Source: Nocardioides sp. | Lineage (GTDB): Bacteria; Actinomycetota; Actinomycetes; Propionibacteriales; Nocardioidaceae | DNA length: 64,000 nt | Assembly: GCF_030655615.1 (NCBI RefSeq) | Contig: NZ_JAURVJ010000173.1 | Span: 1 to 64,000 of the forward strand | Direction: 5' to 3' | Part shown: piece after piece, positions 32,534 through 35,989 of the stretch | Layout of the letters: every line of letters begins with the position of its first letter | How positions within the stretch are numbered: position 1 is the stretch's first letter | The notes under the pieces: model-generated | Database searches by the model: none | The model's input: only the letters and a program-made list of their open reading frames with translations | Told to the model about the DNA's origin: nothing | Translations under genes and position numbers: made by a program

Positions 32534-33448
32534 TCATGCCTGGTCCCGCCGTCGCAGCCACGTGATCGGGTCGCCGTCGTCGACTGTGCGCCCGCGCGCC
32601 CGCAGCATCAGCCGGACGAGCTGGCGGCGGGCGGCCGCGAAGGTCAGCACGTGCGCGAGCACGCTGCTGAGCACGAAGCTCTCCGGCGGGTCGCACAGGG
32701 CGTCGACGAGCACGTCGTCCCACGCGCCGCGGCGGTCGACGTCGCGCCACACCGCCTGCCAGCGGGGCGCCACGTCGTCGAGCCGGGCGACCAGCGCCGC
32801 CACGTCGTCGCCACCGCGCGAGGGCACGTCGGAGCCCTCGATCGCGGCCAGCCAGACCTCGCGGGTCCAGACCAGGTGCTCGAGGACGGCGGCCACCGAG
32901 CTCTCGTCGCCGTCCCAGGCCGTGATCGTGGCGCCGGGCAGGTGCTCGCGCCGGTAGTCGTCGTCGGCGAGGCCCTTGGCCTCGTCGAGGAGCGAGCGGG
33001 TGTCGTCGAGGTCGTGGCCGACCATCAGCTCGGTGACCGGGTTCATGGGCTGCTCCGTCGAGTGGACCCACAGCGAGGTGGGCGGGTGGAAGTGGATGCC
33101 GTTGGGTGCGGGCAGCCGGTGGTCCTGCGTGGGGGTGGTGCCGGGTGTCGCGCTGGGTGGGTGGCCGTAGGCCCGGGCGTAGGCACGGGCGAACCCCTCC
33201 ACCGACTCGTAGCCCGCCGCGAACGCCGCGTCGGTGACGCTGCTCCCCCGCCGCAGCTGCCACGACGCGCGCTCGAGCATGACCCGCCGACGCATCGCGA
33301 CCGGCGGCTCGCCCGCGCCGCGGCGGAGCTGCCGGCTGAAGTGGAACGGCGAGGAGTACGCGCCGAGCGCCATCGCGTCGAGGGTCGTGTTGCCCTCGTC
33401 GAGCACCGCGTCGAGCAGCTCGCGCAGGCGGTCGCGTCCGGTCTCCAT
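32534..33448 (-). CDS. AraC-type HTH fused to a DinB-like domain
   Basis: A 304-residue fusion. Residues about 1-100 hold the two HTH units of an AraC/XylS DNA-binding domain (NTTLDAMALGAYSSPFHFSRQL; SVTDAAFAAGYESVEGFARAYARAYG). From about 130 the protein is a four-helix DinB/YfiT-like bundle with three spaced histidines (VGHDLDD, EHLVWTRE, LAHVLTFAA) that could bind metal. It is unusual to see DNA binding at the N-terminus with a DinB-type sensor after it. ATG 33448 follows CAGACT by six bases. It is divergent from the P-loop gene and may regulate it or the MFS gene. Confidence 0.75.
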   Translation of the reverse strand: METGRDRLRELLDAVLDEGNTTLDAMALGAYSSPFHFSRQLRRGAGEPPVAMRRRVMLERASWQLRRGSSVTDAAFAAGYESVEGFARAYARAYGHPPSATPGTTPTQDHRLPAPNGIHFHPPTSLWVHSTEQPMNPVTELMVGHDLDDTRSLLDEAKGLADDDYRREHLPGATITAWDGDESSVAAVLEHLVWTREVWLAAIEGSDVPSRGGDDVAALVARLDDVAPRWQAVWRDVDRRGAWDDVLVDALCDPPESFVLSSVLAHVLTFAAARRQLVRLMLRARGRTVDDGDPITWLRRRDQA

Positions 33449-33536
33449 GGGCCCAGTCTGGGCGCAGTCGTACGCCGGCCGCCCGACCGATCTTGCTCCG
33501 GCGACTCCCGCCGCGCAGGCGGCGTACCGTGCTCCG

Positions 33537-34100
33537 GTGCCGACGCCGACGACCACCCACCCGCCGTTCCAGCGGCTGATGCTCTACGGCGTCACCGGCT
33601 CCGGCAAGACCACCGCCGCGGCCCGGATCTCGGCGGCCACGGGGATCCCCTGGACGTCGGTCGACGACTTGACCTGGAAGCCCGGCTGGGTCGCCGTGCC
33701 CGACGACGAGCAGCGCCGGATCTTCACCGCGATCTGCGCGGGCGAGCGGTGGGTGCTCGACACGGCCTACGGCTCGTGGCGCGACGTCCCGCTCGCGCGC
33801 GCCGACCTCGTGGTCGGCCTCGACTACCCGCGGTGGCGCTCACTGAGCCAGCTGCTGCGCCGGACCCTGCGACGCGCGGCCACCGGCGAGCTCGCCTGCA
33901 ACGGCAACCGCGAGACGTGGCGGCAGCTGGTGTCGCGCGACTCGATCCTGGTCTGGCACTTCAAGTCGTTCCGGCGCAAGCGCGCGCGGCTGCGTGCTGC
34001 AGCGGCCGCGCCGACCGGACCACCCGTCGTCCTGGTGCGGAGCCGGCGCGAGCTCGACGCGTGGATCGACGGGCTCACCAGGTCGTCAACTCCTTCTTGA
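33537..34100 (+). CDS. P-loop NTPase, FlaR/adenylate kinase-like
   Basis: A 187-residue P-loop protein. Walker A GVTGSGKTTAAARI is near residue 19, then a DDLTWKPGW segment seen in topology-modulation/FlaR-type kinases and CNGNRETWRQL near 122. It probably phosphorylates a small substrate, but none is known for the family. GTG 33537 follows TACCGT by six bases. Its 3' end contains the first operator of the downstream HTH-ClpN gene. Confidence 0.75.
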   Translation: MPTPTTTHPPFQRLMLYGVTGSGKTTAAARISAATGIPWTSVDDLTWKPGWVAVPDDEQRRIFTAICAGERWVLDTAYGSWRDVPLARADLVVGLDYPRWRSLSQLLRRTLRRAATGELACNGNRETWRQLVSRDSILVWHFKSFRRKRARLRAAAAAPTGPPVVLVRSRRELDAWIDGLTRSSTPS

Positions 34101-34131
34101 CGGCACCCTAAGCGTCAAGACATGATTGACG
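34084..34131. promoter_or_regulatory. twin operator CGTCAA-N7-TTGACG with embedded promoter
   Basis: Two copies occur, 34084-34102 and 34113-34131, with centres 29 bases apart. The TTGACG of copy one (34097-34102) serves as -35. CATGAT (34121-34126), in copy two, serves as -10, with an 18-base spacer, and ends six bases before ATG 34133. The layout implies repression by the HTH protein encoded next. Confidence 0.7.
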
Positions 34132-34132
34132 C

Positions 34133-34798
34133 ATGGTCCACCTCTCGCTCGAGCAGCTCGTCCAGCAGATCGACACCGCGACCCCCGGCGAGGACGCCCT
34201 GCGGCGGCTGTCGCTCGCGGCGATCGGCTCCGAGGAGCTCAGCCGCACGGCCGACGACCTGGTCGGTCACTACGTCGACGAGGCCCGCGGCCAGGGGGCG
34301 TCCTGGGCCGAGATCGGCTCGGCGATGGGCGTCACCAAGCAGGCCGCCCAGCAGAAGCACCGCCATGTCTCCGACGACGTCGACGACCTCCTGGGTCTCG
34401 ACGACGCGGCCCGCACCGCTCTGCAGCAGGCGAGCTGGACGGCCATGTCGCAGTGGCACCACTACCTCGGCACCGAGCACGTGCTCGTCGGGGTGCTGCG
34501 CACCGACGCGCCCCTGGCCGCCGCACTCGGCTTCGGCGCCGACGACGCCCTCGAGACGGCGATCGCGATGGTCGGCCGCGGCGAGGTCGAGGTGCTCCGT
34601 CCGCCGCTGCTGACCGCTCGCTGCCGCAAGACCATCGACCTCGCCGCCGTCGAGGCGACCGAGCGGGGGCACGACCTGGTCACGCCGACCGACCTGGTGC
34701 TCGGGATGGTGCGCGAGGGCCGGGGCATCGCTGCCCGGGTGCTCGACCAGCGCGCCGGCGGGATCGACCGGGTCCGGGGGCTGGTCGCGGCGCTCTAG
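34133..34798 (+). CDS. HTH protein with Clp N-terminal (ClpN) domain
   Basis: A 221-residue protein. Residues about 56-77 (GASWAEIGSAMGVTKQAAQQKH) form a clear helix-turn-helix. Residues about 92-221 are a Clp amino-terminal double repeat (WHHYLGTEHVLVGVLR; ERGHDLVTPTDLVLGMVREG), the part of ClpC/ClpA that binds adaptors and substrates. There is no AAA+ motor, so it is probably a regulator that senses or recruits Clp machinery. Twin operators at its promoter suggest autoregulation. Its stop overlaps the convergent miaA stop by four bases. Confidence 0.85.
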   Translation: MVHLSLEQLVQQIDTATPGEDALRRLSLAAIGSEELSRTADDLVGHYVDEARGQGASWAEIGSAMGVTKQAAQQKHRHVSDDVDDLLGLDDAARTALQQASWTAMSQWHHYLGTEHVLVGVLRTDAPLAAALGFGADDALETAIAMVGRGEVEVLRPPLLTARCRKTIDLAAVEATERGHDLVTPTDLVLGMVREGRGIAARVLDQRAGGIDRVRGLVAAL

Positions 34799-35739
34799 TC
34801 GGGACCGGCGACCGCGGCGACGGCGGCCAGCGCCCGCTCGAGGCGGTCGGGGGCGTCGTGGGGGACCCAGACGATGCGGGGGTCCTTGGTCCACCAGCCG
34901 AGCTGGCGCCGGGCGAACCGTCGGGTGGCGAACACCGTGCGCTGCCGGGCCTCGTCGAGCGTCAGCTCGCCGGCCAGGTGGGCGGCGGCCTGCTGGTAGC
35001 CGATCGCGCGCGAGGCGGTGCGTCCCTCGGCGAGTCCCTCGTCGAGGAGCCGGGCGACCTCGTCGACCAGCCCCGCGTCGTACATCTGGTGCACGCGCTG
35101 CTCGATCCGCGCGTCGAGCGTGGCCCGGTCGATCTCGACGCCGACCTGGACGGTCCGCTGGTCGGTGTAGGTCAGCTGGGGCAGCGAGGCGGAGTAGGGG
35201 CGGCCGGTGATCTCGATGACCTCGAGCGCGCGGACCGTGCGGCGTCCGTTCTCCGGCAGCATCCGGGCCGCGGCGTCGGGGTCGAGCTCGGCCAGCCGCG
35301 CGAAGAGGGTCGCCGGTCCGACGGCGTCGAGCTCGGCCTCCCACCGCGCGCGGACCGCGTCGTCGGTCTCGGGGAACTCGAAGCGGTCGAGCACGGCGCG
35401 GGTGTAGAGCGCCGACCCGCCCACCAGCACCGGCGTCGTACGGCGACCCCGCAGCTCGGCCACGACCCCGCGGGCCCACTCCTGGAACTGCGCCACCGTC
35501 GCGGGCTCGCGCACCGACAGCAGGTCGAGCAGGTGGTGCGGCACGCCGCGCCGCTCGGCGGGCGGGAGCTTGGCGGTGCCGACGTCCATGCCGCGGTAGA
35601 CCTGCATCGCGTCGGTGTTGACGACCTCACCGTCGAGCGCCTCCGCCAGATCGAGCGACAGGCCGGTCTTGCCGGCGGCCGTCACGCCCACCACCGCCAC
35701 GATCGGGGGGACGAACGGGGGGTCCACGTCCGCGGGCAT
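34795..35739 (-). CDS. miaA: tRNA dimethylallyltransferase
   Basis: A 314-residue enzyme adding a dimethylallyl group to A37 of tRNAs reading UNN codons. The P-loop GVTAAGKTGLSLDLA is near residue 18. DAMQVYRGMDVGTAK, GGSALYTRAVL, and the C-terminal RFARRQLGWW are all family signatures. ATG 35739 follows a CACACT box by six bases. MiaB, which thiomethylates its product, is encoded 3 kb away on the same strand. The two overlap no common promoter because the Nudix cluster between them is on the plus strand. Confidence 0.95.
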   Translation of the reverse strand: MPADVDPPFVPPIVAVVGVTAAGKTGLSLDLAEALDGEVVNTDAMQVYRGMDVGTAKLPPAERRGVPHHLLDLLSVREPATVAQFQEWARGVVAELRGRRTTPVLVGGSALYTRAVLDRFEFPETDDAVRARWEAELDAVGPATLFARLAELDPDAAARMLPENGRRTVRALEVIEITGRPYSASLPQLTYTDQRTVQVGVEIDRATLDARIEQRVHQMYDAGLVDEVARLLDEGLAEGRTASRAIGYQQAAAHLAGELTLDEARQRTVFATRRFARRQLGWWTKDPRIVWVPHDAPDRLERALAAVAAVAGPD

Positions 35740-35785
35740 GTCAGTAGTGTGGCGGGCGTCGGTTCCCCAAACGCAGGAGGATCTC

Positions 35786-35989
35786 GTGGGCTTCATGGAC
35801 AACATCAAGGGCAAGGTCGAGGACGCCGTCGACAAGCACGGCGACAAGATCGCCGACGGCATCGACAAGGCCGCCGTGACCGCCGACAAGAAGACGGGCG
35901 GCAAGCACCACGACAAGATCGAGGGTGCGACCGGCAAGGCCAAGGACGTGCTCGACGGGCTCGACGGCAAGAACGACGACATCAAGTGA
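35786..35989 (+). CDS. MT0933-like antitoxin-family small protein
   Basis: A 67-residue basic and acidic helical protein (MGFMDNIKGKVEDAVDKHGDK...), matching the MT0933-like antitoxin family (Pfam antitoxin of mycobacteria) in length and in the DKKTGGKHHDKIEGA core. No toxin is recognisable nearby. GTG 35786 has AGGAGG five bases upstream. Its stop overlaps the GTG of the next small gene. The toxin-antitoxin label is inherited from the family and is unproven here; a general stress protein is equally possible. Confidence 0.75.
   Translation: MGFMDNIKGKVEDAVDKHGDKIADGIDKAAVTADKKTGGKHHDKIEGATGKAKDVLDGLDGKNDDIK

Follow-up and report, generated by a model that had tools for sequence, protein, structure and literature searches.

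In 2023 the mycobacterial protein ClpC2 was shown to repress its own promoter through the palindrome CGTCAAC-n5-GTTGACG (PMC10030653). Its sites lie 1–2 nt ahead of the open reading frame (ORF) and are repeated upstream in many actinobacteria, covering the −35 and −10 elements, and leaderless clpC2 transcripts were suggested in the same report. Cyclomarin A binds the Clp_N domain of ClpC2, which lifts repression and sequesters the drug, and ClpC2 protects against cyclomarin; besides cyclomarin, heat was demonstrated to induce it, though to a milder degree, and results on casein are discussed alongside this heat induction (PMC10030653). Contact with DNA was assigned to Clp_N (R185 and R189), and the N-terminal domain was taken to be the dimeriser. 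ClpC1 was reported to bind DNA with low affinity and little sequence specificity, and competition between ClpC2 and ClpC1 for substrates or adaptors was raised in the discussion of that paper. According to a more recent report, repression by ClpC2 is lifted by unfolded proteins or by cyclomarin, and ilamycin and ecumicin are bound by ClpC2 without inducing it (PMC12913811, 2026).

Here we describe a gene from Nocardioides that joins a helix-turn-helix (HTH) to a Clp_N domain and is preceded by two such palindromes. An initial annotation knew of no description of its mode of regulation, a view that is not supported, as self-repression of ClpC2 through sites of this kind has been in print since 2023 (PMC10030653). 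The architecture and the regulatory idea are therefore already published; what may be new, judging from the comparisons below, is the assignment of operator reading to the HTH, together with a form of the system split over two genes.

A putative twin-operator promoter ahead of a ClpC2-type gene

The window, that is, the whole 64-kb stretch of DNA that was analysed, contains the following features around the gene:

33234..34100, + strand: upstream open frame; start codon approximate, stop codon within the distal operator
34084..34102, + strand: distal operator CGTCAA-N7-TTGACG, CGTCAACTCCTTCTTGACG; exact match, right half is the −35
34097..34102, + strand: −35 hexamer TTGACG (promoter scan)
34113..34131, + strand: proximal operator CGTCAA-N7-TTGACG, CGTCAAGACATGATTGACG; exact match, 1 nt ahead of the ATG, encloses the −10
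34121..34126, + strand: −10 hexamer CATGAT (promoter scan); its last T would be −7 with the predicted start at the A of the ATG
34133..34798, + strand: clpC2-type gene, 221 aa (P0001), probably leaderless (ORF, Pfam, phmmer)
34304..34360, + strand: helix-turn-helix, residues 58–76 (AlphaFold model, alignments), with the recognition helix at residues 69–76, where K69 corresponds to Mtb 74 and Q74 to Mtb 79 (alignments)
34403..34792, + strand: Clp_N (ClpC docking) domain, residues about 91–220, no ATPase (Pfam, AlphaFold model, Foldseek)

The exact pattern CGTCAA-N7-TTGACG matches just these two places in the 64-kb window and none in 100 dinucleotide shuffles of it. Between 33950 and 34850 a promoter scan found a sole promoter-like site, TTGACG and CATGAT with a spacer of 18, which has 9/12 matches (shuffle mean 0.0). 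From its coordinates it follows that the −35 belongs to the distal site and that the −10 lies inside the proximal one. Both palindromes were correctly placed and described in the initial annotation. The arrangement is that of ClpC2, with operators over the −35 and −10 and the palindrome CGTCAA...TTGACG present twice, exactly, with a gap of 1 nt to the ORF, and it fits autoregulation by way of the two operators that lie in the gene's promoter. Counting from the −10, transcription probably starts near 34133, on the first base of the ATG (A), giving a leaderless mRNA. Of the inner C/G bases that the published operator has (CGTCAAC-n5-GTTGACG), only 1/4 is retained in the window sites.

The distal operator overlaps the 3′ end of the upstream open frame, whose stop codon is the TGA at 34098–34100. 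This frame (33234–34100) gave no Pfam match, and it contains the sequence GVTGSGKTT, which by eye is P-loop-like; also by eye, the DNA ahead of the twin in a close relative (L012) resembles it. On the other side of the gene lies a convergent miaA (IPP transferase; about 34798–35740, minus strand), followed by a small ORF (35786–35989) with an MT0933-like antitoxin domain (PF14013). With regard to a RelS-like toxin gene, as would adjoin a RelI-type antitoxin, the immediate neighbours are the upstream frame without a Pfam match and miaA.

The protein carries Clp_N according to Pfam (PF02861, E 1.6e-8), lacks ATPase domains, and ends at 221 aa. Pfam HTH models gave no match to it at E up to 1. 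In the AlphaFold model (pLDDT 88.9, pTM 0.67; 35 sequences) helices 58–65 and 69–76 are arranged as a helix-turn-helix, and the C-terminal part has the ClpC N-domain fold, with 2y1r and 3wdb as best Foldseek matches. These results uphold the reading of the protein as an HTH joined to the Clp docking domain without the ATPase. Residues 6–67 match PDB 8ADA, the N-terminal fragment of ClpC2 (Rv2667), with a phmmer E of 2.4e-10, and the published D46–R57 pair is represented by D41 and R52, both columns being invariant in 137/137 loci of the set described below. On this match and alignment, an N-terminal domain of the ClpC2 type, predicted to dimerise, is present. Residue numbers called Mtb here are those of L099, a protein of M. 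gordonae that has D46, R57, Q94, F96, F172, E181, R185 and R189 at the numbers used in PMC10030653.

Conservation of the layout

We assembled 137 distinct HTH-Clp_N loci, comprising 29 from a search of 145 relatives, the best 80 of 510 confirmed loci and 28 others; left out were L036, a full ClpC, L121, which duplicates the window, and L126, which duplicates L079. When a twin is defined as two GTCAA-N7-TTGAC sites with at most one mismatch each, twin sites stand ahead of 134/137 loci, and shuffled upstream regions yield 0.0 twins per set. Spacing within the 134 twins is 28 bp (103 loci) or 29 bp (31 loci), the proximal site lies 1 nt (87) or 2 nt (40) from the chosen start in 127/134, and the −10 reads TANNNT in 125/134. 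Twenty further, partly more divergent loci (L270, L273–L282 and L284–L292; L283 was left out for want of a Clp_N in the HTH frame) have twins in 12 cases; of the other eight, 6 have one site and 2 have no site. The initial annotation had staked itself on the sites recurring ahead of orthologues, and they do so at these 134/137 and 12/20 loci. The twin-operator element in the window is real and well conserved.

The exceptions among the 137 are L027, L131 and L144. In the genome of L027 (G011) a twin lies further upstream, directly ahead of a methyltransferase gene that precedes clpC2 (L188 1548–2354), and on this arrangement a methyltransferase appears to have entered the clpC2 operon there. 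Across 116 relatives, the exact twin pattern occurs in 21, at one place each, and at 20 of these 21 places it is directly at an HTH-Clp_N gene (control 0). L012 (69%) apart, no collected relative is close to the window protein; of the 145 relatives searched, G068 alone yielded a close homologue (69%), which has exact twins too.

Within the host genome, the pattern with up to one mismatch is found at 13 places, compared with 4 for the reversed control. A third exact CGTCAA-N7-TTGACG lies at G000:C176:28448-28466 (L003), just past a gene end, and no HTH gene was seen at this site, which is about 100 nt from the contig end. In the host this is the one exact site outside the window, and given its place past a gene end we claim no wider regulon there. 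One relative, G100, has 23 exact CGTCAAC-N5-GTTGACG places, with 0–3 in the other relatives searched. All 17 of the 23 that were fetched (L253–L269) fall inside open frames of at least 146 aa, and codon usage likely lies behind the abundance, with a weak GC3 signal in several of the frames (0.11 to 0.56).

HTH genes without a fused Clp_N domain

From at least 110 weaker HTH matches listed, we took 80 loci with no Clp_N in the HTH frame (L151–L170 and L192–L251). They were picked without a prior look at operators, and 300 bp upstream of each were scanned for GTCAA-Nk-TTGAC with spacers of 0 to 14. Exact sites numbered 81 at k=6 and 9 at k=7, and there were none at any other k from 0 to 14 in these upstream regions; the reversed pattern gave none, and shuffles gave 0.02 at k=6. 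An N6 site is present in 49/80 loci and a site with either spacer in 55/80, leaving 25/80 with none. Successive sites are most commonly 28 bp apart (21/35 intervals), and in 31/55 site-bearing loci the last site ends 1–2 nt ahead of the in-frame start that follows it first. The HTH frames of the 80 loci gave no Clp_N match.

In 46 of the 80 loci a separate Clp_N ORF comes after the HTH gene in the same orientation (for example L152, L159, L160, L194, L201, L219, L230 and L247), and Pfam confirmed Clp_N in 4/4 of the two-gene loci tested. Read mechanically, the two genes overlap by 4 nt in 22/46. GTCAA sites, mostly with the N6 spacer, precede 37/46 (26 of them as twins) and are missing from 9/46. 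At L219, TAAAAT lies within the proximal palindrome, GTCAACTAAAATTGAC, whose end is 1 nt from the ATG, the same layout as that of the fused genes. We suggest that the separate HTH and Clp_N genes represent a two-gene form of ClpC2, of which we found no description in the open-access papers searched and which may be new.

Other genes also follow HTH genes of this type. At L206, L212 and L248, twin GTCAA sites occur without a Clp_N neighbour and the next ORF is ABC exporter-like (by Pfam for L206 only), as if the HTH module also controlled efflux at these loci. At L250 an HTH gene with two GTCAA-N7-TTGAC sites is followed by a GNAT-like acetyltransferase ORF, and the pair resembles a toxin-antitoxin pair.

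Recognition-helix residues and the half-site

In 1168 residue-by-column tests spanning the protein, the residue best associated with loss of the inner C:G was residue 79, which is in the recognition helix: the inner C:G is lost in 9/9 loci with Q79 and in 5/125 with K79. In further twin loci it is retained in 4/4 with K79 and lost in 7/8 with another residue, and all loci combined (with two single-site loci added, and in part held-out) show loss in 18/19 non-K79 against 5/129 K79. In the small HTH family, the inner-base counts are C 100, T 31 and A 1 for K, G 6 and T 2 for Q, and G 4 for E. The window fits this pattern, with Q74 at the position of Mtb 79 and 1/4 inner C/G bases. The tree implies a minimum of 7 changes from K79 to another residue. 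Its well-supported branches hold just 3 independent pairs (2 by another count), none of them running the opposite way, and with this correction the association is not significant.

The strongest column association of all is that of residue 74, where a change from K to R goes with a change of the outer base from C to T (18/21 R loci versus 1/113 K loci; p 2.7e-18, without tree correction); 11/19 of the loci with the outer change carry a name, and all 11 are Streptomyces. In the small family the same link has a per-locus p of 0.53, and T is commoner with R when counted per base (p 0.011), so we treat it as a hint only. In the 80 loci, a GTCAA site accompanies the recognition-helix motif QA[AVM][HQ]K[KR] in 38/44 cases and its absence in 17/36 (p 2e-4), but the link is not significant when the set is limited to the 34 loci that lack a Clp_N neighbour (5/6 versus 13/28, p 0.18).

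The crystal fragment 8ADA comprises residues 4–72, and Mtb 72 corresponds to window residue 67, just short of the recognition helix at 69–76. A word search of the main text of PMC10030653 found neither 'helix-turn-helix' nor 'HTH'. Taken with the half-site data, the alignments point to the N-terminal HTH, and not Clp_N, as the part of the protein that reads the operator.

Alternative explanations

Palindromes may arise by chance in a GC-rich genome, and the third exact site of the host, just past a gene end near the end of a contig, is what such an origin might leave behind. The window, though, gave 0 exact sites in 100 shuffles, and the fixed spacing holds in 134/137 loci against 0.0 twins per shuffled set; this conservation already refutes the chance reading, to which we assign a negligible probability. 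It is also very unlikely that the sites belong to another regulator family that uses spaced inverted repeats, such as HspR, which binds HAIR, or ClgR. HAIR also has an N7 spacer and ClgR controls clp genes, yet by inspection the half-site in the window differs both from HAIR and from the ClgR consensus, WNNWMGCYNNNRGCGWWS, and the sites go together with the HTH-Clp_N gene.

The role of Clp_N calls for more weighing, as regards both DNA and ligand. According to the published proposal, a Clp_N helix (174–189, with R185 and R189 in Mtb) reads the operator while the N-terminal domain only dimerises. The R185A/R189A exchange weakened DNA binding, its M. smegmatis counterpart reduced repression (expression was 2.0-fold higher, versus 4.6-fold for R57A), and the patch was reported to be conserved and positively charged (PMC10030653); in our set both arginines are retained in 103/137 loci. 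If these residues read the DNA, however, both should be present wherever the operator is, and this does not hold: the window protein has V173 and E177 in their place, and one or both are missing in 34/137 loci, all 34 of which have twin operators. The same half-site also stands ahead of HTH genes whose protein has no Clp_N, ClpC1 shows little sequence specificity in spite of its similar Clp_N (PMC10030653), operator bases associate best with two residues of the HTH, 74 and 79 (without tree correction), and the crystal fragment by which the N-terminal domain was defined is without the recognition helix. We therefore regard a Clp_N reader as improbable, while Clp_N may contribute additional contacts with DNA because of the published R185A/R189A data (PMC10030653). 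As to the ligand, the cyclomarin contacts Q94, F96, F172 and E181 (Mtb) are replaced by D84, L86, L160 and D169 in the window protein, and Leu at both Phe positions is seen in 3/137 loci (the window, L012 and L021). The ClpC1 of the host retains F2, F80 and E89, which we take to be cyclomarin contacts (F2 and F80 also according to PDB titles). With its contact residues changed, the window protein should not be labelled a cyclomarin sponge from sequence, and its ligand may not be cyclomarin. The initial annotation supposed that the protein senses proteolysis status by competing for Clp adaptors or substrates, so that substrates, adaptors or unfolded proteins, rather than drugs, would be the natural ligand that releases the operator. 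Part of this stands in print, namely competition (PMC10030653) and relief by unfolded protein (PMC12913811), whereas for proteolysis status as such as the signal we found no demonstration in these papers. Substrates and adaptors dock on Clp_N, heat was seen to induce mildly and casein results are discussed (PMC10030653), and the two phenylalanines that contact cyclomarin are missing from the window protein while the host ClpC1 keeps F2, F80 and E89. On the other hand, two other ClpC1-binding peptides bind ClpC2 without induction, and therefore binding alone is not sufficient (PMC12913811); no natural substrate or adaptor was found as inducer in the text of PMC10030653 or PMC12913811; and a different small ligand could explain the loss of the phenylalanines just as well. 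A sensor of proteolytic load is thus a serious possibility that we nevertheless lean against.

Model and implications

We consider it very probable that the window gene encodes a divergent ClpC2-type autorepressor, in which an HTH dimer acts on the twin operators, Clp_N is the sensor and the protein serves as a decoy that spares ClpC1. The dimer would be held together by the N-terminal helical domain (D41–R52, the counterpart of Mtb D46–R57), and the recognition helix (69–76) would enter the GTCAA half-sites of the two tandem palindromes. Once occupied, these palindromes, at the −35 and −10 of the gene's own leaderless promoter, would block RNA polymerase. The C-terminal Clp_N would sense a ligand, which is cyclomarin in mycobacteria and possibly unfolded or substrate protein, and binding of this ligand would take the dimer off the operator and allow the protein to accumulate as a decoy sparing ClpC1. 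We infer operator binding and autorepression by the window protein from its anatomy, the overlap of operators and promoter, the conservation of the layout and the association of the HTH with the half-site, and from mycobacterial ClpC2, for which binding, autorepression, induction by cyclomarin and protection are described (PMC10030653).

A broader proposal, to which we give somewhat less than an even chance, is that actinobacteria have a modular sensor of stress or antibiotics and that ClpC2 represents its fused form. In such a system the HTH would read twin GTCAA palindromes in its own leaderless promoter, and its Clp_N partner would be either fused (N7) or encoded by a separate, often overlapping gene (mostly N6) and control the HTH in trans; the HTH would also head exporter-like and toxin-like operons, and the published Clp_N surface for DNA would then be wrong.

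ClpC2 shields mycobacteria from a drug that targets ClpC1, and the surface that reads DNA and the manner of ligand release matter for ClpC1 drugs and BacPROTACs. That the HTH and not Clp_N reads GTCAA would be a simple, directly testable correction. In the two-gene relatives sensor and DNA reader would be separate proteins that could be assayed apart, and the window protein offers a natural variant in which both the pocket and the half-site are changed.

Comparison with known systems

The window protein shares the Clp_N fold with the N-terminal domain of ClpC1, its best Foldseek matches being ClpC N-domains, but ClpC1 is part of an AAA+ unfoldase. ClpC3 and stand-alone Clp_N proteins likewise have Clp_N without the ATPase and, unlike the window protein, no fused HTH. 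PDB 8B9O may be a protein of this group, either ClpC3 or a stand-alone Clp_N protein. According to a review, ClpC3 binds the same ligands. The antitoxin RelI (Rv2664; PDB 9SDC) has a region related to the N-terminal domain of ClpC2, and an HTH is remarked on in the paper; in contrast to the window protein, it has no Clp_N and neutralises an RNase toxin, RelS, and we found no operator reported for it (PMC13284704).

The closest system is ClpC2 of the Rv2667 type (PMC10030653; PDB 8ADA and 8AD9), which has the same N-terminal dimer domain and Clp_N without ATPase, the same CGTCAA...TTGACG sites 1–2 nt ahead of the ORF, repeated upstream and lying over the −35 and −10, a leaderless transcript (inferred for the window), and the D46–R57 pair, present as D41 and R52 in the window protein. 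The window protein differs in being 26–34% identical to 34 named actinobacterial relatives, in having Leu for both cyclomarin phenylalanines and neither R185 nor R189, and in having Gln for K79 along with the loss of 3/4 inner C/G half-site bases, and its −10 is CATGAT in place of the TANNNT seen in 125/134 twin loci. As judged from these comparisons, the window gene belongs, as a divergent member, to the family of ClpC2 autorepressors already described in print.
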